Shown here: positions 8,279-39,903 of the stretch, piece after piece | How positions within the stretch are numbered: position 1 is the stretch's first letter | Layout: every line of letters starts with the position of its first letter | NCBI GenBank assembly: GCA_003173865.1 | Contig: PJMF01000030.1 | Span: 1-57,316 of the forward strand | Direction of reading: 5' to 3' | From: Minisyncoccota bacterium | Lineage (GTDB): Bacteria > Patescibacteriota > Microgenomatia > UBA1400 > PJMF01 | DNA: 57,316 nt | Program-made: the position numbers and the translations under genes | Notes under the pieces: model-generated | Told to the model about the DNA's origin: nothing | The model's database searches: none | Seen by the model: the letters and a program-made list of their open reading frames with translations, nothing else

Positions 8279-8718
8279 GGGGATGTATTGCTTTGACGTG
8301 ATGTGCTCTTTAATATCTGCAGACACTCTTTGATCACTAGAGGTAAACAGGATCAAAACACAAATGTTACTTATGTAGCATCAATTGCATCTGCATTCGC
8401 TTTGGCAGCAATGTATGGCAAACGCCTCATCGCCGCTATTCGCGGAGCCGTAGATGTATCTCCAGCTTACGCTCGCGTTTACGCAGTTTAAGCATCGAAG
8501 ACATTCATAGCGTCGTTCTCACTGATGGCGCGCTATGGGTGACAACCCAGTCAGTGTGACTGCGTGAGTCTCATATCGCTCACGCGCAAGCCTTTGATAT
8601 GGATTGTGTGCGCCGGCTTGAGCACTCCTTCCGCTCACACAATAACAAGAATGCTCTATGTCTGTAGATGATATTGATGATGCCGTTACGGACGGGGGTT
8701 CACTACCCCCCATCTCCA
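8279..8718 (+). ncRNA. ssrA: Transfer-messenger RNA (tmRNA)
   Basis: The 5' end (GGGGATGTATTGCTTTGACG) matches the tmRNA consensus. The 3' end forms a tRNA-like domain: T arm GGGGG-TTCACTA-CCCCC at 8694-8710, and CATCTCC at 8711-8717 pairing with GGGGATG at 8279-8285, then discriminator A. A long helix 2 pairs AATATC/GCAGACA near 8313-8326 with TGTCTGTA/GATATT near 8659-8676. A PK1-like pseudoknot is visible: CTCT/AGAG plus TTTGATC/GATCAAA, ending at 8357. The CCA is not encoded, and the T loop has C instead of A at position 58. At about 440 nt it is long. The likely tag frame contains ALAA near 8399-8410 but stays open to TAA at 8489-8491. It rescues stalled ribosomes. Confidence 0.9.
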
Positions 8719-10246
8719 CACTAGGGGTATTGGTAGTACTAAAAGACGAGAAAAGATTGATTGCTTCGCCAAATTCCATGGTTCCAAAACCACTTTTATA
8801 CGAGTATTGTGGTGGGGTATCAAAGTACATGAACTGAATGGTGCGTCTGTCTTCGACGTAGTCACTCTTCCAGAGTACAAGTGGATTTTCGAGGGTCACA
8901 AGCACCCGATTCAACGCGGTTCCAAACTGTTTTTCGGAAAATTGTTGAGGTTGGGTTTTGGACACCAGTGTTTCTTTTTCTTGAGCGAGTTTTTCAATTT
9001 GCGCTTCATACGCCTCAGCGAGCAATTGCGTCTTTGCCAGACTGACCCGAATCGTTAAATTTTCAATCTGAGTATCAAGGCTAGCAATGTGTTCCTCATG
9101 CTGTTCATATTCCAGTGCGGTTTCTTGCTTTTGTGTTTCCCAAGCATCCTGAAAAATGGCTTTCACCAAGTCACCCATATCGTGACCAACTTTTTTGGTA
9201 CTGAGGATGGTTTCAAACTCTGGCTCAATTTTACTTTTCTGAATGGATTTGTACTGATACTGACACCCATCTTGGTTGCAAACATACGTGGGATAGCGCT
9301 TGCTTCTCCCACTCACCCAGCTGGCTGTGAACGGATGGCCACAGCCAGCACAGACTGCCCAGCCTCGCAGTGGGAAATCCAGCGTATAGTCTTTGCGAAG
9401 TCTGACTTTGGTGCGGCCGGCTAATTTATCCTGCACGCGCTGAAAGGTTTCCGGTGAAATGAAGCCCTTATGATGGCCTTCTCTTCTCGATACATCCCAC
9501 TTCGTGTATTCGATATAGCCAGCATACAACGGGTTTTTGAGTGTTTCTTGGACGCCATGGAGAGAAATGTTTCGTTTAATACCATGTTTTCTATATTCTT
9601 TGGCAATAAACTGTCGCACTTGCTCTTGAGTCACGAACACATTCTTTTCATACCCCTCGATAGCTTCTTTGAAAATGGTGGCATATGGTTGACGGAGCAC
9701 CAGTACTTTGCCGTCACGCTTACTTTTACTGTGTTTGAACCCCAGTGGTGGGCAAAATGGCCAAAAGCCACGTTCTAACCGTGCTCGTTGTTTTTGAATG
9801 ACTTGTCGTTGATTTTGTTTCCGTTCAAGCTCTCCGTGGAGTGCGAGCACCCCTTCAATAAATCCATTTTCCGGACTATTCTCAAAAGTAAAATTGAGGC
9901 ACTCGAGCGTAACATCTCTGGCCATCAATTCAGATTTGATCTTCAAATGGACTGAATAGTCTCGAGCGAATCGCTTGAGATCATCAAAAATGACGACATA
10001 TTGGCGATAGGGATGCGCATCAAGATACGCAATCAAACGCATCATCGCTGGACGATCGAACAGTGCGCCAGAAATGCCGTCATCACGAAACACCTCTTCA
10101 ACCACATAGCCTTTTGCATCCGCGCGATTCTGACAGAGTTTTTCTTGGCTATCTAAACCAGTGCCTTCCTCAACTTGTCGCTTGGAACTCACACGGCAAT
10201 AAATAAGGCAATGTTGTGGTGTTTGGGTGATCTTAGTTGTCATCAT
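8519..10246 (-). CDS. Large serine recombinase (integrase), C-terminus read from tmRNA antisense
   Basis: A site-specific recombinase of the large serine family. The resolvase domain includes catalytic Ser20 in YCRVSS and the RDDGISGALFDRP segment. A recombinase domain spans about 160-290. A zinc ribbon uses C299/C302 and C323/C328, and a coiled coil lies at about 375-440. Residues from about 510 to 575 are encoded opposite the tmRNA gene, so this tail is probably created by integration and the native C-terminus in the excised circle would differ. The start overlaps a 42-aa ORF by 14 nt. It is the gene expected to integrate and excise the 8.7-16.6 kb element. Confidence 0.92.
   Translation of the reverse strand: MMTTKITQTPQHCLIYCRVSSKRQVEEGTGLDSQEKLCQNRADAKGYVVEEVFRDDGISGALFDRPAMMRLIAYLDAHPYRQYVVIFDDLKRFARDYSVHLKIKSELMARDVTLECLNFTFENSPENGFIEGVLALHGELERKQNQRQVIQKQRARLERGFWPFCPPLGFKHSKSKRDGKVLVLRQPYATIFKEAIEGYEKNVFVTQEQVRQFIAKEYRKHGIKRNISLHGVQETLKNPLYAGYIEYTKWDVSRREGHHKGFISPETFQRVQDKLAGRTKVRLRKDYTLDFPLRGWAVCAGCGHPFTASWVSGRSKRYPTYVCNQDGCQYQYKSIQKSKIEPEFETILSTKKVGHDMGDLVKAIFQDAWETQKQETALEYEQHEEHIASLDTQIENLTIRVSLAKTQLLAEAYEAQIEKLAQEKETLVSKTQPQQFSEKQFGTALNRVLVTLENPLVLWKSDYVEDRRTIQFMYFDTPPQYSYKSGFGTMEFGEAINLFSSFSTTNTPSVEMGGSEPPSVTASSISSTDIEHSCYCVSGRSAQAGAHNPYQRLARERYETHAVTLTGLSPIARHQ
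8702..8737. repeat. Candidate attL junction at the tmRNA 3' end
   Basis: Inverted arms ACTACC (8702-8707) and GGTAGT (8732-8737) are symmetric about an even centre at 8719/8720, the geometry of serine-integrase attachment sites, which have a dinucleotide crossover. The left half is the tmRNA T arm and acceptor strand; the right half lies inside the recombinase gene. Inference: this is the tmRNA-proximal junction of the integrated element. Confidence 0.5.
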
Positions 10247-10361
10247 GGTCTTTGATGATTCGTATTATAAGGGTATACAGAAAATTGCGAATCATTTCAA
10301 TTTGTTCATCGGTCAAGCTGGTATTTTTTAAGTACGCTCGGCACTCTTCTACAGATAGCAT
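10233..10361 (-). CDS. Small ORF (42 aa) preceding the recombinase
   Basis: A 42-residue ORF reads MLSVEECRAYLKNTSLTDEQ and continues IEMIRNFLYTLIIRII. It looks like a compact two-helix protein. Its stop overlaps the recombinase start by 14 nt, which implies translational coupling. A TTG two codons upstream is an alternative start. Composition is protein-like and it fills an otherwise empty stretch. It could be a recombination directionality factor or regulator of the recombinase, but this rests on position alone. Confidence 0.5.
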   Translation of the reverse strand: MLSVEECRAYLKNTSLTDEQIEMIRNFLYTLIIRIIKDHDDN

Positions 10362-10443
10362 CGCCAACCCACATATGCGAGGTCGAGCGGTGTGCAGTAA
10401 CCTTTCTGAATAATGTGTGGCTGGTGGTCTACCATACCATGTT

Positions 10444-10689
10444 TCATAGTTTTTGCTTAATAAGCTGCGTGATGTTGACGATTTTGCCGTCTTCTACCAT
10501 CACTTCCAGCGTTTGATATTTTTTCTCAATCAAGAGAGTGTGGAGCGGTGAGCTGGTGACCCTCTTTTTGCCTTCTAAAAACACCACCACTCCTTGTCTA
10601 ATGCGAATCGTAATTTCGCTAAAGTCATTTGCACGAATATGTTGGAGTAACTCCATTTCTTGGGTGGTGAGGGTGGCGATACCTAACAT
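10444..10689 (-). CDS. Small element protein, DUF2292-like
   Basis: An 81-aa protein with two short beta units separated by a linker: ITIRIRQGVVVFLEGKKR and TLEVMVEDGKIVNI. The pattern of a polar helix then a strand-turn-strand ending in a basic residue resembles small DUF2292-type proteins found in phages and plasmids. It overlaps the preceding ATPase gene by 7 nt, so it belongs to the replication operon of the element. Function is unknown. About 80 nt between it and the 42-aa ORF hold no recognised feature. Confidence 0.55.
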   Translation of the reverse strand: MLGIATLTTQEMELLQHIRANDFSEITIRIRQGVVVFLEGKKRVTSSPLHTLLIEKKYQTLEVMVEDGKIVNITQLIKQKL

Positions 10690-11825
10690 GCTGCCCCTCC
10701 TGCCTCAGTTGTTTGGGTGCTTGTTTCATCAGCGATGCTTGAAGGTGCTTCTCCAGATGTGGGTAATACCCCCAATCGCCCCGTTTCTAAGGAGTTGGGA
10801 GTATTGGGGTGATTAAATAACGTATAGACTTTCTCGTTTTTGTTGCCTGATGGGAGAACTTGCAATGTCCCGTTTCGCCTGAGCTGAGCAATGCTCTGTT
10901 CTGCTTTATGTTTTGAAAAACCGGAAGTGATGAGTTTGCTCAATAATGCTGCATAATTGAGATGCTTTTCTTCAAATAACGTCTCCAGCACCATTTTTTC
11001 TAGCTTGGCATCTTCTACTATTGTTTGTGGAGTCACAGCACCTTGGTAGATAAACTGCAAGTGATCAGGGTTGCTGACGAGATTGACCGTGATCGGGGCA
11101 AGCCTCATCCCCAAGCGATTTTTGAGTTGCTGAACTGTAATGGTACTTCCATCCGATTTGAATCCATATTGCAAATCAACTGCTGCCCGAATCTCGCTAC
11201 TGCCCCGCAATGACTGTGCCGTTTGGTTACTGGCATCACTTTTCTTATCGTGATGAATAAAAATGACAGTGACGCCGGCATCTCTGATGCGCGTAATTGC
11301 TTTGGTGACTCGTGCCATTTCAACCGAATTGTCTTCAATCGCCGCATGCATTCGGATCAGCGAGTCGAGAATCACCAGCTTAATGGCATACTGGTCAATC
11401 AATTGCACGACTGCGTCAACACATGATTGCTTTTCTAGAGAAAAGTCAGGGTTCAGAGAAAAAAGTAAGTTTTTGGTATCTGCTGCACCCAACAACTGCA
11501 TCCGTTTTTTGATCAATCGCTCATGATTTTCTAAATCAATAATCAACACCCGACGCTGGAGTGTCGCATAATGATCAAACAGTGGTTGGCCTTGGGCTAC
11601 TGCAAGCGCAATGCTTTGAGCGATAAATGATTTGTAAGATTCCGGTTGACCAGAAAAAACGATCCGTGCATCCTCTGGAATGAGATCTTGTACCAGCCAC
11701 GCTGTTTCTTCGAATTGTTTCTGATTCAGTGTCGTCAGTGACATCACTTGCAAATCGAAACTCGGTTTTGCATGACCAACGAGACGTTGTGATTCACGGT
11801 CAATACGCTCAGGAGAGAAATTCAT
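10683..11825 (-). CDS. RepA-like AAA/RecA-fold ATPase (replicative helicase-like)
   Basis: A 380-aa RecA-fold NTPase of the RepA/AAA_25 type found in plasmids, prophages and satellites. Walker A is SGQPESYKSF at about residues 59-68, Walker B is LVILDSL ending near 156, and FIHHDKK is a sensor-like motif. A winged-helix-like segment follows (LSKLITSGFSKHKAEQSIAQL). The start at 11825 is chosen because AAAGGAG lies 6 nt upstream and it forms an ATGA overlap with the primase-like gene. The C-terminal coding region contains one copy of a CCCAAT palindrome (10763-10815), encoding HPNTPNSLETGRLGVLP, which looks like an insertion into an unstructured tail. Confidence 0.82.
   Translation of the reverse strand: MNFSPERIDRESQRLVGHAKPSFDLQVMSLTTLNQKQFEETAWLVQDLIPEDARIVFSGQPESYKSFIAQSIALAVAQGQPLFDHYATLQRRVLIIDLENHERLIKKRMQLLGAADTKNLLFSLNPDFSLEKQSCVDAVVQLIDQYAIKLVILDSLIRMHAAIEDNSVEMARVTKAITRIRDAGVTVIFIHHDKKSDASNQTAQSLRGSSEIRAAVDLQYGFKSDGSTITVQQLKNRLGMRLAPITVNLVSNPDHLQFIYQGAVTPQTIVEDAKLEKMVLETLFEEKHLNYAALLSKLITSGFSKHKAEQSIAQLRRNGTLQVLPSGNKNEKVYTLFNHPNTPNSLETGRLGVLPTSGEAPSSIADETSTQTTEAGGAAC
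10763..10815. repeat. CCCAAT palindrome, copy 1, inside the ATPase gene
   Basis: An imperfect hairpin: CCCCAAT at 10770-10776 pairs with ATTGGGG at 10803-10809, with inner CCC/GGG and outer TAAT/ATTA pairs. Bases 10790-10814 are a perfect 25-bp reverse complement of 15131-15155, far beyond chance. Confidence 0.75.
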
Positions 11826-12460
11826 AGACTTCTCCTTTCGAGCCACTGCACCGCGTCGCGAAACTCATACCCAAGTGCCTTCTCCACAAACGTAATCACA
11901 TCGCCTTTATTCCCACAGGCATAACAGCAAAACGAATTGGTTGCTGTATAAATCACACATGATGGGTGGCGATCTGGTTCGTGAAATGGACAACGAATGG
12001 TAAGCGAGTTTCGACCGGTGGGTTTAACCATGTCAGTGAATTCGGTGACGATGTCTGCGAGTTGCACTTCTTTGGCATGTTCCACATTGAGGGATTCAGT
12101 ACGCGATTGGGACTGGAGTGGTTGAACGTGTGAGAGTTCATGGTTCAGTCGTACGCGATCTTTTTTAAGCGCCAATATTGTTGGGACATAAATTTGCTTT
12201 ACCAACGCAAGACGAAAGTAGGTTGTGACTTCACCAGTTGTTTCTTGTTGAATCTTCGCGACATGATCGCGGTAGTCATGTTCTAGTTTGGTAATTTCTT
12301 CTGATTTTTCTTTGATGAGCTCTTTGACTCTGGGGAGAGCTTCTGGACAACTCACTAACCACTGGATTTCTTTTTGGGCTTTCCGGTCAGCAGCATCATG
12401 CTTGTGTTCAAGGCGAAGTTCTTCTTCAAATGGGATGGTGGTATTGAGATGGTTGTGCAT
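11822..12460 (-). CDS. CHC2 zinc-finger primase-like protein
   Basis: A 212-aa protein. Residues about 30-125 form a charged coiled coil. The C-terminal 80 residues match the DnaG-type zinc-binding domain: C157-x2-H160 (RCPFHEPDRHPS) and C179-x2-C182 (CYACGNKGDVITFVE). The TOPRIM catalytic domain of a full primase is absent, so this is a stand-alone DNA-binding module that probably works with the overlapping downstream ATPase in element replication. The TGA stop overlaps the ATPase start (ATGA). In satellites and prophages such primase-helicase pairs drive autonomous replication. Confidence 0.8.
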   Translation of the reverse strand: MHNHLNTTIPFEEELRLEHKHDAADRKAQKEIQWLVSCPEALPRVKELIKEKSEEITKLEHDYRDHVAKIQQETTGEVTTYFRLALVKQIYVPTILALKKDRVRLNHELSHVQPLQSQSRTESLNVEHAKEVQLADIVTEFTDMVKPTGRNSLTIRCPFHEPDRHPSCVIYTATNSFCCYACGNKGDVITFVEKALGYEFRDAVQWLERRSL

Positions 12461-12514
12461 GATGATAATGTGTTCTGTTTGTGAATGTGTGTGCGTTTTT
12501 ACATACGACTGCCT

Positions 12515-12790
12515 TTATTGATGACTCTGCCGGAAGTCCGTTTTTTCTTGATAGAGACGTGACTTGAAATACTTCAGCGCCTCAAAGTAACTCAGCGCAT
12601 CGATCGGCAACTGCCGTGCCCAAAATTGTGAAATGATGGCGTCAAAACTGGGATCTTTGGCTCGATCAAAATGAAATGTGGCGCGTGACGTTTCTTGGGA
12701 GAATTCGATGCACTCGAGTTTGGAAAGTGAAACCGTGTGAATAGCGCACGCTAATGCCAGTGATTGTGTAGAAAAAGTCTGTGGTATCAT
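12515..12790 (-). CDS. Small element protein, DUF5659-like
   Basis: A 91-aa protein. The pattern (FSTQSLALACAIHTV, a strand ending in FHFDR, then YFEALKYFKSRLY) resembles DUF5659-type small proteins common in phage and plasmid replication regions. It is the first gene of the leftward operon leading to the primase-like protein, ATPase and recombinase, and faces the terminase operon across a 400-bp non-coding region. No enzymatic motif is seen. A regulatory or DNA-binding role is possible but unproven. Confidence 0.5.
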   Translation of the reverse strand: MIPQTFSTQSLALACAIHTVSLSKLECIEFSQETSRATFHFDRAKDPSFDAIISQFWARQLPIDALSYFEALKYFKSRLYQEKTDFRQSHQ

Positions 12791-13192
12791 ATGATCCTTA
12801 TATTGATTGATAATGTGTGATCTTTATTGTTGCTCTGCTTCAATTTTAGTGTGTTTCAGGTGATTCTTTATACATTTTTGGTTTAATGCAAAAAAATTGC
12901 TCCAAAGAGTCTGCAATTTGACTTTCTCAAAACATTCTATAAATGTTTGGGTGTTTTATTCTGAAATTGGTGTACAAAGCCAAGTGGAGTGGGTTCTAAA
13001 GTCGTTGCGGAAACGCAGGAATAAATAAGGAAATTTTCCAATAAGAACGAAAAAAGATCTTGTCTCGATGGGCGCGATTTGCCCGCGACCACGCGTAGTA
13101 TACCAAAATACTAGAGTTTTATTCTGAAATTGCTTTGGAGAGATTTTGGAGAAATGTATAAGAAAACACTGCCATTTCAGTACAATAGAAAT
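12791..13192. other. Divergent control region and possible origin of the element
   Basis: About 400 bp without a convincing gene, between the leftward replication operon and the rightward terminase operon. It contains a 17-bp direct repeat GTTTTATTCTGAAATTG (12953-12969 and 13116-13132). Hairpins include TGCG-GAAA-CGCA (13006-13017) and GGGC/GCCC (13070-13084), with a GGAAATTTTCC palindrome near 13029 and TAGTAT/AATACTA near 13096-13112. The density of repeats at the divergence point suits an origin or an operator region. A short in-frame extension of the terminase ORF reaches back to 13130. Confidence 0.5.
13181..13186 (+). promoter_or_regulatory. -10 box upstream of the small terminase gene
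   Basis: TACAAT ends 6 nt before the ATG at 13193, the same leaderless spacing as at the dusB-like gene. No strong -35 is visible. Confidence 0.45.
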
Positions 13193-13723
13193 ATGAGTGA
13201 TATTTCTGAAAAAAATTCCACCAATTTGACTCCTCGCCAGAAGTTATTTTGCGACTGGTACCTCAAGCTAGGGAATGGCACCGAGGCTGCGGTGAAGGCA
13301 GGCTATAGCGAGAAGACCTCTCGTTTCATTGCCAGCGAAAACTTAACAAAACCCAACATTCAAACGTATCTCGCACATAGGCGTACGGAACTGGAAGAGT
13401 TACTGGGGTTCAATAAAGCCACCGTCATTCAAGATCTGCTCACAATTAAGGAGCAGTGCATGGTGGCCAAGCCCGTGATGGAGTATGACCGCACCAAGCG
13501 CACATTTTCGCAAGTGATGAAAGAAACTGAGAACGGAGAAGAAGTTGGGGTGTTTGAGTTTGATAGCCTCGGTGCCGTTCGCGCATTAGAGACAATCAAT
13601 AAAATGATGGACTATTACACACCGACCAAAGTGGAAGATGTGACACCAATAAATAAAGAACCCGCCACTATCGTGGTGAATAAATCATATGCTCATCAAG
13701 AACCCGATCACCCTGCTACCTAA
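13193..13723 (+). CDS. terS: Phage terminase small subunit
   Basis: A 176-aa protein of the terminase small-subunit family, which recognises packaging sites. The N-terminal helix-turn-helix region reads LTPRQKLFCDWYLKLGNGTE, followed by AAVKAGYSEKTSRFIASENL and a helical oligomerisation segment. The ATG at 13193 follows a TACAAT box by 6 nt and starts just before the conserved domain. An ATG at 13154 with TTGGAGAA upstream, or the TTG at 13130, are alternatives. It overlaps the large subunit by 35 nt, the usual terS-terL arrangement. Confidence 0.85.
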   Translation: MSDISEKNSTNLTPRQKLFCDWYLKLGNGTEAAVKAGYSEKTSRFIASENLTKPNIQTYLAHRRTELEELLGFNKATVIQDLLTIKEQCMVAKPVMEYDRTKRTFSQVMKETENGEEVGVFEFDSLGAVRALETINKMMDYYTPTKVEDVTPINKEPATIVVNKSYAHQEPDHPAT

Positions 13724-15125
13724 ACAAACCATTGCATGGGATTGTCTTGAACATTCCACTGTGGATGAGTTGGGCTATGGTGGTGGTGCCGGTGGGGGCA
13801 AAACCGAGATGGGGTGTTTACTCGCCATTTTTCTGTCTGACGTTTTTCCAGGTAGCCGTGGAGCGATTGGTCGGTTTGAGCTGAAGAACTTGAAACGCAC
13901 GACCCTGACGAGTTTCTTTGAGGTGGCTAATAAACTGGGACTCAAAGAAGGCAAGGGAAACGATTACATCTACAACCAACAAGATGGCTACATTCGGTTC
14001 AAGAACGGTAGTGAGATTCTGATCCTTGATACCGCTCCATCACCCAAAGACCCGCTCTACACGCGGTTTGGTGGATTGGAATTATCGTGGTGTTGGATTG
14101 ATGAGTCGAATGAAACGCCGTTTCGAGCGATTGAGATTTTGAGCACGCGTGTGGGTCGACGCAACAAAAATCCCGAATGGGAAGACAACCTGAAACAATT
14201 CTTTGGCCTCTACAGTGAAAAAGATAGCTGGGTACTCAAGCCAACTTTCCTTGAAACCTTCAATCCTGAAAAAGGCCACATCTATCAACGCTACTGGAAA
14301 CCATTCAAGGAAGGGACGATGCCCAAGAACAGAGCCTTTATACGGGCATTAGCTTCAGATAATCCACATCTCCCAGAAGCATATTTAGACAGGATTAAAC
14401 GCTCAACCAAAGCCACGATTGAACGCTTACTCTTTGGCAACTTTGATTACGATGATGATCCACAAAAGATCTTTGACTACGACAGTATTGTAAATCTGTT
14501 CACCAATACCCATGTGGAAGGCGGAAAGAAGTACATTACCGGAGACATTGCCGGTAAAGGCAAAGACATGACGGTGATTTATGTATGGGATGGGCTGAAA
14601 GTGGTTCAAATGCATTACGAAAATGTCACAGATCAGCGACTCCTCAAAGAACGCATCCTCAGACTTAAGGACAAACACAAGGTTCCAACGAGCCAGATTC
14701 TGCTTGATTATGACGGCATTGGTGTTGGTCTTGTCGACGAACTGGAATGTAAAGGCTTCCAAAACAACTCCAGCGCAATCACCACACGGGAAGAAGAACA
14801 ACGCGGTTTGAAAGCCAACTACCAAAACTTGCGCTCACAATGCTGGTTCAAACTGGCAGAACTGGTCAATGACACACGCATTCACATTTCCTGCGCTGAT
14901 GAAACAATTCAAACGAAAATCGTTGAAGAGCTCGATGTCATCAAAGAAATCAATGATGGTCTCGATCAAAAAAGGCAAATCATTCCGAAAGGTGGCGTCA
15001 CAGATGAAGGCAGAGTGACCATCAAATCGCTCCTCGGGAGATCCCCTGATTTTGGCGATGGTTTGATGATGCGGATGTACTTTGAAGTTTCCCCAGTCGT
15101 TGAACCGATGATTCGCTGGTTATAA
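13689..15125 (+). CDS. terL: Phage terminase large subunit
   Basis: A full-length 478-aa packaging motor. The ATPase domain has Walker A GGAGGGKTE (residues 32-40) and Walker B with catalytic acid LSWCWIDES (D138, E139). The C-terminal RNase H-like nuclease shows candidate metal ligands D286 and D293 (ITGDIAGKGKD) and an Asp in LLDYDGIGVG near 343. The gene looks intact and functional. No portal, protease or capsid gene follows, which is unusual for a prophage. A CCCAAT hairpin lies immediately downstream. Confidence 0.92.
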   Translation: MLIKNPITLLPKQTIAWDCLEHSTVDELGYGGGAGGGKTEMGCLLAIFLSDVFPGSRGAIGRFELKNLKRTTLTSFFEVANKLGLKEGKGNDYIYNQQDGYIRFKNGSEILILDTAPSPKDPLYTRFGGLELSWCWIDESNETPFRAIEILSTRVGRRNKNPEWEDNLKQFFGLYSEKDSWVLKPTFLETFNPEKGHIYQRYWKPFKEGTMPKNRAFIRALASDNPHLPEAYLDRIKRSTKATIERLLFGNFDYDDDPQKIFDYDSIVNLFTNTHVEGGKKYITGDIAGKGKDMTVIYVWDGLKVVQMHYENVTDQRLLKERILRLKDKHKVPTSQILLDYDGIGVGLVDELECKGFQNNSSAITTREEEQRGLKANYQNLRSQCWFKLAELVNDTRIHISCADETIQTKIVEELDVIKEINDGLDQKRQIIPKGGVTDEGRVTIKSLLGRSPDFGDGLMMRMYFEVSPVVEPMIRWL

Positions 15126-15130
15126 GTGGC

Positions 15131-15180
15131 AATCACCCCAATACTCCCAACTCCTAGGGTGTGGGACGATTGGGATGATT
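15131..15180. repeat. CCCAAT palindrome, copy 2, after the terminase gene
   Basis: A 50-bp imperfect hairpin: AATCA/TGATT outer pairs, CCCAAT/ATTGGG, then CCCA/TGGG around a TCCTAGG-type loop. It begins 6 nt after the terL stop. Its left half (15131-15155) is the exact inverted copy of 10790-10814. It lacks a T tract, so a simple intrinsic terminator is unlikely. Its GTATTGG-type arms also resemble the recombinase-side arm at 8728-8733, so it is one candidate for the right attachment site. Confidence 0.7.
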
Positions 15181-15223
15181 ACAATGAACAATAGAAAATG
15201 ACAAGCATTCAGGCAGCTGAAAA

Positions 15224-15460
15224 TTAAAAGGTAAAGAGCTCTGGCAAATTCACTTTCAACGCATTTGCAATGCGCACAATCACATCAAAGGAAAGATTGG
15301 CTCGCCCCGATTCAATAAGACTGACATAACTTCTATCAACTTGTGCTTTTTCAGCAAACATTTCTTGCGTTAGCTGAGCTTGGATTCTGAGTTGACGAAT
15401 ACGAGCAGCAAACTTTTTCCGTGCCACAGCAGTATAGGTAGAACGTGATTGAAAAATCAT
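15224..15460 (-). CDS. XRE-family transcriptional repressor
   Basis: A 78-aa helix-turn-helix protein. Residues about 18-72 form a typical XRE/Cro domain: ARIRQLRIQAQLTQEMFAEK, then DRSYVSLIESGRANLSFDVI. It is a short single-domain repressor as in phage immunity regions. It is divergent from the 70-aa gene at 15565, and the shared intergenic region contains two palindromic AT-rich sites. This strongly suggests that it autoregulates and controls the rightward genes. Confidence 0.88.
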   Translation of the reverse strand: MIFQSRSTYTAVARKKFAARIRQLRIQAQLTQEMFAEKAQVDRSYVSLIESGRANLSFDVIVRIANALKVNLPELFTF

Positions 15461-15479
15461 GACTTGAGAATATAAAAAT

Positions 15480-15509
15480 GTTGAATATAATGAAACCTTA
15501 TATATTCAA
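15480..15509. promoter_or_regulatory. Operator-like inverted repeat near the XRE start
   Basis: TTGAATATAA and TTATATATTCAA form an inverted repeat about 20 nt upstream of the repressor start. Its half-sites (TTGAATAT) are the same as in the perfect palindrome at 15532-15555. Confidence 0.5.
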
Positions 15510-15531
15510 TACTAAATAAAAATATCAGATC

Positions 15532-15555
15532 TATTATTGAATATATTCAATAATA
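15532..15555. promoter_or_regulatory. Perfect 24-bp palindromic operator
   Basis: A perfect AT-rich palindrome with half-site TTATTGAATA centred at 15543/15544, just upstream of the AAGGAGG Shine-Dalgarno of the 70-aa gene. Likely binding site of the adjacent XRE repressor (inference from position and symmetry). Confidence 0.6.
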
Positions 15556-15564
15556 AGGAGGATT

Positions 15565-15777
15565 ATGAGTACGCTCATCTCCACACTCAATGATTTTTTG
15601 GCTACCCGAAAAGGCCGACATGATCAGCCCACTGAAGAACTACTCATTTTCAACCATCGCATTACGCAAGAAATTATGAAGGCGAGTGACCAACACCGGC
15701 TGTTGGAGTACTTAGGAATGAGAATTCCAGCCAGCAAATCGACTTCTGAACGTGAGCAAACAAAACTGCCGATATAG
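15565..15777 (+). CDS. Small protein under XRE control
   Basis: A 70-aa protein with an excellent Shine-Dalgarno (AAGGAGG, 4 nt before ATG). The sequence (LISTLNDFLATRKGRHDQPT, then FNHRITQEIMKASDQHRLLEYLG) is mainly helical and charged. No family is recognised. Position opposite the repressor suggests an early or antirepressor-type element gene. Codons 4-8 contain CATCTCCACACT, a 12-bp match to the tmRNA/recombinase junction, so the 3' part could lie across an attachment site; this is uncertain. The following 160 nt to the resolvase start show no further gene. Confidence 0.55.
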   Translation: MSTLISTLNDFLATRKGRHDQPTEELLIFNHRITQEIMKASDQHRLLEYLGMRIPASKSTSEREQTKLPI

Positions 15778-15937
15778 ATAAAGGCAATAGTGTGATCTTA
15801 TACTTGATGTGACAAGTTGCAGTAAAAAGGAACGTTTCGTTGCACCGTATCTGATAACAATAGTAAGCGGCTAGCCCTGCAACAGGCAGACGAAAAGAAC
15901 GACAAAATGACCTTTTTCTGGCATCAATCCAAAACCT

Positions 15938-16594
15938 ATGATGAAAACCATCGGCTATATTCGTGTAAGCACTGATCAGCAGGATTTGAGCAAACAAAAG
16001 CATTTGTTGTTGGAATACGCCCAGCAGCATAAACTCGTGATTGATCAGTTTATTGAAATTGAAGTTTCGTCGCGAAAAAGCCCAACCGAACGACGCATTA
16101 CCGAATTATCAGCAGCACTGAGGAAGGGTGATCACTTGCTCGTGGCCGAACTTTCTCGCTTGGGTCGTAACATGCTCGAAACGATGATCATCATTACTAA
16201 TCTTATTGACCGCGGGATTACATTGACTTTTGTCCGCCAACCAGAGCTTTCAACCACTGGCATGTATGGCAAACTCCTTCTTGCCATTTATAGCTATATT
16301 GCTGAAACTGAACGCGAGTTTATTTCTCTGCGCACCAAGCAAGGACTTGCAGCGGTGAAAGCCAAGGGAATACGGCTCGGCAGACCAAAAGGGAGTAAAA
16401 ATAAAAATGGACGAGTTCTCGATCAATGCAAACCGCAAATTGAAGCCTATTTGCGCCTGCATCTCTCGATTGGTGCAATTCAAAAGCTCATCAACCCGCA
16501 ACTCTCAAGACCCCTCACCTACAACAGCTATAAATACTACATCCATGCCGATAGCGATCTATGTAAAGTGATGTCACGTCCCCACGATCTATAA
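15938..16594 (+). CDS. Small serine resolvase/invertase
   Basis: A 218-aa serine recombinase of the resolvase/invertase (Hin/TnpR-like) class. The catalytic domain is intact: YIRVSTDQQ with nucleophilic Ser near residue 11, then LLVAELSRLGRNMLE and a long E helix (YSYIAETEREFISLRTKQGL). GIRLGRPKGSKNKNGR links to a C-terminal DNA-binding segment of about 60 residues. It differs from the large recombinase at 8519 and may resolve multimers, invert DNA, or be remnant transposon DNA. No obvious crossover sites flank it. It marks the probable right edge of the mobile region. Confidence 0.85.
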   Translation: MMKTIGYIRVSTDQQDLSKQKHLLLEYAQQHKLVIDQFIEIEVSSRKSPTERRITELSAALRKGDHLLVAELSRLGRNMLETMIIITNLIDRGITLTFVRQPELSTTGMYGKLLLAIYSYIAETEREFISLRTKQGLAAVKAKGIRLGRPKGSKNKNGRVLDQCKPQIEAYLRLHLSIGAIQKLINPQLSRPLTYNSYKYYIHADSDLCKVMSRPHDL

Positions 16595-16598
16595 AATT

Positions 16599-17297
16599 TT
16601 AACGTACCCTATCTCCATATTCAAAACGGGCATTTTGTGATTGTTGCAAAATTGGGGATACGTCAATGCCATCATCTTTTAGCCTCATAAGATATGCTGT
16701 TGCAATCCAGCAATCGGTATTGGGAGAAAAATTGTTAGGAACGCAGAGAAAGCATGTGAGTTTTTCCGTGCCATCAACGATGGCCTTTAACAACCTGCCA
16801 TTCCCGTCATGAACATGGAATGTATTGTTTGCATGCCTTTCAACGATTATTTGATCATTAGCTCTTAAACTACTAGGAGTATATTCGTTGCTAACTTTCC
16901 TTTTTGTAGTTTCGTAATCAGCGGGGTGTTGTTGAAGGTAAAGAGATACTTCCCGTGCCGTTTTTCCATTGATAGGAAAATCAGCAATTTTAGTAATATC
17001 AGAAGCAAATCTCAAATCTGCTGTTTCTAGCAGTTCCTCACTCCAGTCGAATCCGCGAGAAGTGATCATTCTGGTGATATTTTTGAGTTTGTAACCCATC
17101 ATCAAAGAATCAACCAGATTCCAGAAATCCCGTACATTATTATTTGTGCCAAAATCTGACCACTTTTTATTGACTTGATGTTTTATCTGCTCGTAGTCGG
17201 ACTCAGGTAGCAGCTTGTATAACTCGTGGGCAATGAGTAATCTACCAATTTTTAATCTTATTTCCTCTATCAGATTCGTTGTGAAGTCCATAGACAT
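16599..17297 (-). CDS. Unknown protein paired with HEPN-like gene
   Basis: A 232-aa protein of unknown family. The N-terminal half is helical; the C-terminal half contains RANDQIIVERHANNTFHVHD followed by GNGRLLKAIVDG, a pattern reminiscent of ParB/sulfiredoxin-like domains. The resemblance is weak and the Fic motif HxFxxGNGR is not present. The start at 17297 has CAGGTAT upstream and falls 14 nt after the preceding gene's stop. It is the last gene of the 9.5-kb minus-strand run. It could be an antidote or partner of the HEPN-like protein. Confidence 0.5.
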   Translation of the reverse strand: MSMDFTTNLIEEIRLKIGRLLIAHELYKLLPESDYEQIKHQVNKKWSDFGTNNNVRDFWNLVDSLMMGYKLKNITRMITSRGFDWSEELLETADLRFASDITKIADFPINGKTAREVSLYLQQHPADYETTKRKVSNEYTPSSLRANDQIIVERHANNTFHVHDGNGRLLKAIVDGTEKLTCFLCVPNNFSPNTDCWIATAYLMRLKDDGIDVSPILQQSQNARFEYGDRVR

Positions 17298-17310
17298 ATA
17301 CCTGTTTTTG

Positions 17311-18030
17311 TTATTCAGCCAATAAATTTTGCTCAAAAAGATATTTCACAATCATGTCGGCAAAACTGAACACGCCGAAGACAAGTTTTTTATCAACAAA
17401 AGTTTTTGCGAAACCCCAAATGATAGGGTTATCCTCCGCAAGGAAAACCACTTCATCAACTTTTTGGGTAACAATGTCAAATTTCTTGACTTTACTCGCG
17501 CCAACACCTTTGGTTATTTTCTTAATGTTGTAGTGAAGGTATGGATTCCGAACTGTGTCCTTAAAATTTTTTAGCTTTTTTTCAATTTCCTCGCTTAAAA
17601 TACCAAGCCTTTTTGCTTCAACGATGGTTGAGCCCAGCTCCATTCCTTCAACGCGATCCCATTCGGCTTTGTCATATGTATCACCCTTACGTTTTTTCAC
17701 GATTGCATATTTCAGGCAAAATTCCACAAGAATTGCACTTAGTGATATTGCCGCTCCATTCAATCCAAAAAGCATGGCCTCACGAATTTCATCGTAAAGA
17801 AAACCCACTGTAGGGATAGCAGCTTTTGGTGCTGTCGGAAATAACTTTATGACATTATTTGCTTCTTTTCTTCGTTGAGCAAACAGATCATCTAGCAACT
17901 CGGTTCCAGACTTTTTCACTGTATCAAAGTGAGCACCTTGTTTTTGAAGGGCATCGATAGTTTTTGGGTTAGCAATCATGTGTGTTGACCCCTGAGCCAA
18001 ACTGGCAAGAAAGTCGTTGATGTTTTTCAT
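17311..18030 (-). CDS. HEPN-like protein
   Basis: A 239-aa all-helical protein. A long helix pair (EIREAMLFGLNGAAISLSAI, then VEFCLKYAIVKKR, residues about 81-113) precedes RNPYLH at 161-166, which fits the R-x4-6-H motif of HEPN ribonucleases. HEPN proteins are common toxins and antiviral RNases and usually sit next to an antitoxin gene; the adjacent 232-aa gene could fill that role. The domain call rests on the motif and helical context only. It is 25 nt downstream of the tandem-Nudix gene and apparently in the same transcription unit. Confidence 0.5.
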   Translation of the reverse strand: MKNINDFLASLAQGSTHMIANPKTIDALQKQGAHFDTVKKSGTELLDDLFAQRRKEANNVIKLFPTAPKAAIPTVGFLYDEIREAMLFGLNGAAISLSAILVEFCLKYAIVKKRKGDTYDKAEWDRVEGMELGSTIVEAKRLGILSEEIEKKLKNFKDTVRNPYLHYNIKKITKGVGASKVKKFDIVTQKVDEVVFLAEDNPIIWGFAKTFVDKKLVFGVFSFADMIVKYLFEQNLLAE

Positions 18031-39743: not shown

Positions 39744-39747
39744 CTGC

Positions 39748-39890
39748 GCTCCTTCTTTCATCCAGACTTAGGTCTCCTAGAGAAGACCAATACTGTCGGC
39801 CTCGGAATTGCACCGAATCCTGTTTCACTGCCAGAAGCAGAAAACTCGTGGGCTATACCACCGATCGGGATTCACACCCTGCCCCGAAGG
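39748..39890 (-). promoter_or_regulatory. FMN riboswitch (RFN element)
   Basis: Read on the minus strand the region contains all RFN hallmarks: CTTCGGGGCAGGGTGTGAAT, CCCGATCGGTGGT, AGCCCACGAG, GATTCGGTGCAATTCCGAGG, CCGACAGT and AAGTCTGGATGAAAGAAGG. The conserved stems close correctly. It controls the rib operon in response to FMN, lowering expression when flavin is abundant. Confidence 0.96.
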
Positions 39891-39903
39891 AAAATATCAA
39901 CTC

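Follow-up and report, generated by a model that had tools for sequence, protein, structure and literature searches.

A candidate phage satellite with both terminase genes and no capsid genes in the tmRNA gene of a patescibacterium

We analysed a stretch of 57,316 nucleotides (the window; contig PJMF01000030.1 of assembly GCA_003173865.1) from a Minisyncoccota bacterium. Positions 8711-15587 of the window are likely to form an intact mobile element with the workings of a phage satellite. The element sits in the gene for transfer-messenger RNA (tmRNA), measures 6,865 bp (~6.9 kb) between its attachment (att) cores and encodes a large serine integrase, replication proteins, a regulator and both subunits of a terminase. 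Its unusual feature is terL, the gene for the large terminase subunit: the element has the complete genes of a packaging motor without a capsid. It appears to be a member of a broader, widespread and apparently undescribed set of elements of reduced-genome bacteria, characterised by the integrase, a RepA-like ATPase, a DUF5659-like protein and the small terminase subunit (terS), most of which have terS alone or no terminase gene. This group of elements probably travels in the shells of real viruses.

The borders of the element are given by a repeat in a conserved gene. The integration target is the tmRNA gene (ssrA, 8279-8721, forward strand; Rfam RF00023, 69 bits), whose 3′ end CATCTCCAC serves as attachment core. 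Inside this end lies attL, CATCTCCACACT at 8711-8722, and an exact 12-bp repeat of it at 15576-15587 is attR, the right border. CATCTCCACACT occurs exactly twice in the 57 kb, where 0.01 copies are expected, and a Markov simulation puts the chance of a copy in the 20 kb downstream at 0.3%. In 13 relatives the tmRNA end CATCTCCAC is kept and divergence starts immediately beyond it; the gene order tRNA-Val-ComF-tmRNA is found again in relatives as well. An integrase of genome G119 (locus L144), 48% identical to that of the window, also has its 3′ end in tmRNA. There, an 18-bp repeat, CCCCCATCTCCACCAAAC, with copies 4,989 bp apart, occupies the same tmRNA position as the repeat in the window. With that of L145, three related integrases use the tmRNA site. 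Because the 12-bp repeat is unique, its left copy is the conserved tmRNA end and the L144 repeat lies at the same position, we set the right end at 15587.

The first-pass annotation had drawn the element from 8719 to 16594. The left end now moves to 8711 and the right end to 15587, and the resolvase (15938-16594, forward strand; hidden Markov model (HMM) match 3e-33), which had been counted among the genes of the element, lies outside it, beyond attR, and is rejected as one of its genes; the remaining genes stay. A large serine integrase and an att core repeated in a conserved gene make this a serine-integrase integrative element. In the excised circle, where 15575 is joined to 8711, the predicted attP reads ...AGTACGCT-CATCTCCACACT-AGGGGTATT.... 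An open reading frame (ORF) of 70 amino acids with a good ribosome-binding site (15565-15777) has its start codon in the element and its body beyond attR. It is a hybrid made by integration; in the circle, the frame starting at 15565 would encode 45 amino acids, antisense to the end of the integrase gene.

Every ORF of gene size from attL to attR was scanned with HMM families (Pfam, PHROG). Matches were obtained for every gene that had been named from the sequence before (serine integrase, RepA, CHC2 protein, terS, terL, XRE regulator and the resolvase), and the operators claimed next to the regulator are recovered as operator-like sites by pattern count. The earlier statement that portal, capsid, protease and tail genes are missing also holds between the att sites, where no lysis gene was recognised either; the element is therefore not a functional tailed prophage. 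About 87% of it is coding and every gene is unbroken.

On the reverse strand, five genes lead from attL to a divergent intergenic region; the two small ones among them are part of a leftward operon. The large serine integrase (8519-10246; PF00239, PF07508, PF13408; phrog_95 1e-67) crosses attL into the antisense strand of tmRNA, so that its ORF has 575 amino acids in the window. This length is a product of integration, and the excised form is predicted to have 525 amino acids, ending in ...SVEMSVLIILLIIEYIQ. Between integrase and RepA lies an 81-amino-acid protein without a family match (10444-10689), whose ORF overlaps the end of repA and which we infer to be a candidate directionality factor. 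The RepA-like AAA_25 ATPase (10683-11846; PF13481 5e-29) was aligned with 10 relatives, and its C-terminal tail is private to the window element. It is followed by a protein with a CHC2 zinc-finger primase domain (11822-12460; PF01807 8e-15) and by a 91-amino-acid DUF5659-like protein (12515-12790). The latter, aligned across elements with 15 members, has homologues in 14 other loci (that of L183 matches PF18903 at 5e-10) and is a recurrent marker of these elements. The divergent region itself (12791-13192) contains a 17-bp exact direct repeat (12953-12969 and 13116-13132) and may be a control or origin region. To its right lie the terminase genes and, near attR, an XRE/Cro-type regulator on the reverse strand (15224-15460; PF01381 6e-16). 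Upstream of this gene, between it and attR, three TATTSAATA operator-like palindromes fall within 50 bp (15503-15552; starts at 15503, 15535 and 15544); over the whole window, 5 copies of the pattern TATTNAATA were counted and 1.3 are expected.

Both terminase genes are on the forward strand. The terS gene (13193-13723; 176 amino acids from ATG; PF03592 3e-24, phrog_51 2e-28) encodes a protein that was aligned with TerS of phages and of elements. The terL gene (13689-15125; phrog_2 7e-21) is full length. Its product retains all positions that are invariant among 39 family members (E139, D286, D293, D340, D454, D457 and others) as well as the near-invariant K38, and judged by its sequence the ATPase and nuclease residues are intact. 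The family profile matches a phage TerL of known structure, Sf6 gp2 (PDB 4idh), at 1e-12. The closest TerLs, at most 46% identical over the alignment, belong to IMG/VR phages; that of Flavobacterium phage 11b is 39% identical. It had been remarked before that a terL alongside terS is less usual; terL was found in no other element of the set. Searches with terL returned no copy of the element in 137 relatives or in 380 genomes of the phylum, which contain only distant terL genes (in G485 and G253). The surroundings of the G485 gene (37%) look like a phage and include a weak major-head match; since a serine integrase at 65 kb in G485 has the opposite orientation, we did not use this region as a full prophage with an integrase of the window type.

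The satellite reading draws its comparative support from two sources, of which small capsidless relatives with the same integrase and RepA are the first. Searches of the 380 phylum genomes and of 374 genomes of the class yielded 22 readable RepA loci; the sampled phylum has reduced genomes throughout (~0.5-1.7 Mb), as would be expected of Patescibacteria. A serine integrase adjoins RepA in 19 of the 22, and in many cases the 3′ end of its gene reaches, in antisense, into a gene for tRNA or tmRNA. In four loci (L149, L151, L152, L183) the integrase 3′ end instead runs into the beginning of a ychF-like GTPase gene. This gene, which was identified in L183 and has homologues in the other three, is another recurrent target of the integrase family. 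Repeats bound four of the relatives: L144 (5.0 kb, 18-bp repeat), L150 (7.96 kb, 12-bp repeat, in a single-contig genome), L182 (7.94 kb, 17-bp repeat) and, with a weaker 11-bp repeat, L178 (~11.5 kb). None of these four has an ORF of at least 300 amino acids besides integrase and RepA, and therefore a head-tail module cannot be present. The first-pass annotation had named close relatives with capsid and tail genes between terL and the resolvase as the finding that would refute a satellite; among the integrase-bearing elements we found none with capsid genes following terL. Single-sequence searches of IMG/VR gave no close relative of the window integrase or RepA.

Three of the relatives have terS without terL: L150, which is bounded, L158 and L183. 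In the first two, TerS belongs to the phrog_4102 type, and in L183 to the type of the window (phrog_51 2e-16, PF03592 1e-12). L183 also adjoins a Gabija-like pair (L183:14460-19000; GajB 6e-131 and a GajA-like protein). Satellites carry accessory defence genes of this sort, and the pair is a candidate anti-phage cargo of a satellite. Some minor observations were made at these and other loci. Where integrase 3′ ends lie antisense in tRNA or tmRNA (L144, L145, L148, L150, L154, L156, L157 and the window), the overlap yields spurious annotated C-terminal tails such as VEMGGVEPP. A candidate defence protein, PDC-S01 (L155:8808-10058; 2e-71), adjoins a RepA/CHC2/integrase element, and a LOOT RNA (RF03000) lies near two RepA-integrase elements (L148:11087-11210 and L149:12280-12397).

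The second source is the recurrence of solitary terS genes at serine integrases embedded in tRNA genes. PF03592 matched 27 of the 374 class genomes, 21 of them above the curated cut-off, the window included. We read 20 PF03592 neighbourhoods, leaving out the window and L183. In 13 of these a complete serine integrase lies within 7.5 kb of terS, and a 14th has a fragment only. By chance this would happen with P ~1e-8, in a rough binomial estimate that assumes 7 integrases per Mb, which is generous, and ignores shared ancestry. The integrases frequently end in a tRNA gene, DUF5659-like and XRE genes are frequently present, and several neighbourhoods contain replication-initiation genes. In none of the 20 does a recognised terL adjoin terS; one could be hidden only in L246, where a large ORF of 361 amino acids follows terS closely on the same strand. 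For 61 proteins around the solitary terS genes, the best 25 of 74 PHROG families matched include methyltransferases and, from replication, helicases, DnaD-like loaders, O-like initiators and a primase; a large terminase, a portal, a capsid or a tail is not among these 25. In the best solitary TerS proteins (L183, L231, L232, L236, L243, L245) the alignment to phage TerS extends well past the helix-turn-helix (HTH). No convincing att repeat of at least 10 bp was found at the tRNA end of the solitary-terS loci, although serine cores can be shorter.

The main rival to a satellite is prophage decay. A temperate phage with the integrase, replication and terminase module of the window would have inserted itself into tmRNA, and a single deletion would then have removed all that followed terL, leaving packaging genes that are intact but useless. 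The phage relatives of the terminase lend this some weight. The nearest TerL relatives belong to ordinary tailed phages (L002, L005, L016 and L034 of IMG/VR and phage 11b, 39-46% identical), two such phages (L034, L026) have a TerS related to that of the window, and portal genes follow soon after terL in all three IMG/VR contigs checked (L002, L010, L034). Viral contigs with the same RepA family (L189, L194, L201) even show the same modules in the same order, CHC2-RepA-small genes-terS-terL-portal-sized gene, and the sequence in the gap between terL and the XRE gene partly matches the tail of repA, possibly a recombination scar. However, all ORFs are unbroken and terL is fully conserved, and replication and terminase genes diverge, which they do not in the phages. 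A relative of the window integrase or RepA is absent from all 69 terL phages, and the integrase from all 15 viral RepA contigs, whereas 19 capsidless RepA loci adjoin a serine integrase. We therefore regard a prophage remnant as unlikely.

A non-viral, plasmid-like integrative element that moves by other means (natural uptake or conjugation in trans) and holds terS and terL as accidental or regulatory cargo seems to us quite improbable. Many integrase-RepA relatives are without a terminase gene, so the core may not need one, and several solitary TerS proteins match chiefly in their HTH part. Yet the family contains two types of TerS (PF03592 in the window and L183, phrog_4102 in L150 and L158), which suggests repeated selection for packaging. 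Moreover, terS lies near serine integrases far more often than by chance, and the window has in addition a terL with what look like its catalytic residues. Least credible by far is a gene-transfer-agent-like or otherwise domesticated packaging module that serves the host. Terminase genes retained with no capsid genes nearby would fit such a module, but the borders and integrase of a mobile element are intact, neither the capsid family PF05065 nor the portal family PF04860 is matched elsewhere in the genome, and terL is absent from 137 relatives, so it has no conserved host function.

Several points weigh against a satellite too. Helper, induction and packaging are inferred. Among the elements found, terL occurs in the window element alone, which has no close relative, so that its recent mobility is putative. 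The element scans recognised no genes for capsid size or interference. Its own genome offers no helper, with no PF04860 portal, no PF05065 capsid and a single terL, although a resident helper is not required of a satellite. Many solitary TerS proteins match PF03592 over the N-terminal HTH only; hence some may be regulators. As for helpers elsewhere, phages with the RepA family of the window could be of the helper type. A contig of a genome of the same class (L181) has such a RepA together with a TerL (phrog_2 4e-18) and a portal (phrog_64 1e-11).

Phage-inducible chromosomal islands (PICIs, including SaPIs) are compact islands with an integrase, a master regulator and a replication module, typically of ~12-15 kb; their further marks are an att site of their own that prophages never occupy, genes found in PICIs only, induction that depends on a phage, packaging in particles of the helper and interference with it (PMC6092414). 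Like the window element they have a rep/primase module and att repeats and no structural or lytic genes; terS is optional in them. The window element combines integrase, replication module and, in the XRE protein, a putative master regulator in a compact island, but at 6,865 bp it is smaller than a PICI. Its integrase is of the serine type, whereas those of PICIs are usually of the tyrosine type. It further differs in having terL besides terS, in lacking recognised capsid-redirecting or interference genes and in its host, a lineage not linked to satellites in the literature searched. We do not file it as a PICI because of its size and because its induction, its packaging and any interference are putative. 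The capsid-forming cf-PICIs share the presence of both TerS and TerL, yet they also encode capsid, protease, portal and connectors (PMC10690885), none of which the window element has. The PICMI is similar in size (6.1 kb), minimal gene content and absence of capsid remodelling genes, but its integration site adjoins fis and it lacks terS (PMC10803314). By analogy with it, headful packaging of concatemers is plausible. The PLE of Vibrio cholerae also uses a large serine recombinase, and a directionality factor encoded by its helper drives its excision (PMC6002521), which serves as a model here. The rest of its gene content differs, and no such factor was identified for the window element.

As a satellite, the element would be held silent by the XRE protein. 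Infection or induction of a tailed helper would lift the repression, and the helper may provide the excision factor, as for PLE (PMC6002521). The element would then excise and replicate, probably as concatemers. Its TerS and TerL would pick its own DNA, dock on the portals of the helper and fill helper procapsids, by headful packaging as in PICMI (PMC10803314). On arrival, the integrase would reinsert the element into tmRNA. A bolder proposal seems to us as likely to be wrong as right: that a broad undescribed lineage of satellites, with tRNA/tmRNA serine integrase, DUF5659-like protein, variable replication genes and terS, exists in reduced-genome Patescibacteria-like bacteria, and that the window element is a "terminase-autonomous" member that supplies the complete motor (TerS and TerL) itself and borrows nothing but procapsids and tails of a helper.

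In the full-text literature searched we found neither a phage satellite described from Patescibacteria nor a satellite with both terminase subunits and no capsid, and the word "satellite" is absent from two recent papers about phages of Patescibacteria. If our reading is true, satellites are present even in bacteria with genomes of ~1 Mb, and a solitary terS with a tRNA-embedded serine integrase is a simple search key. A capsidless terS-terL pair would fill the missing combination between PICIs, with terS only, and cf-PICIs, with a whole head module. A further prediction of our reading is the existence of helper phages with portals able to accept a foreign TerL.

The element further contains two copies of a 52-nt imperfect palindrome, an 81% inverted match to each other. 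One lies in the 3′ coding tail of repA (10763-10814), where it stretches RepA past the end of its relatives, and the other directly after terL (15131-15182), where it folds into a strong predicted hairpin (z = -3.9 on reverse-strand DNA). The 19-nt core is absent from the rest of the genome, and no comparable repeat was found in 9 related loci searched. The palindrome may serve in packaging (a pac site), in replication (an origin) or as a terminator, or it may be the scar of a recombination. Just right of attR, the genes for the resolvase and for two proteins of unknown kind, of 245 and 239 amino acids, occupy 15938-18030 (with a weak AbiEi match, E 0.008), possibly another, older mobile or defence-like island. 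Farther along the window, an FMN riboswitch (Rfam RF00050, 91 bits) lies at 39746-39895 on the reverse strand.

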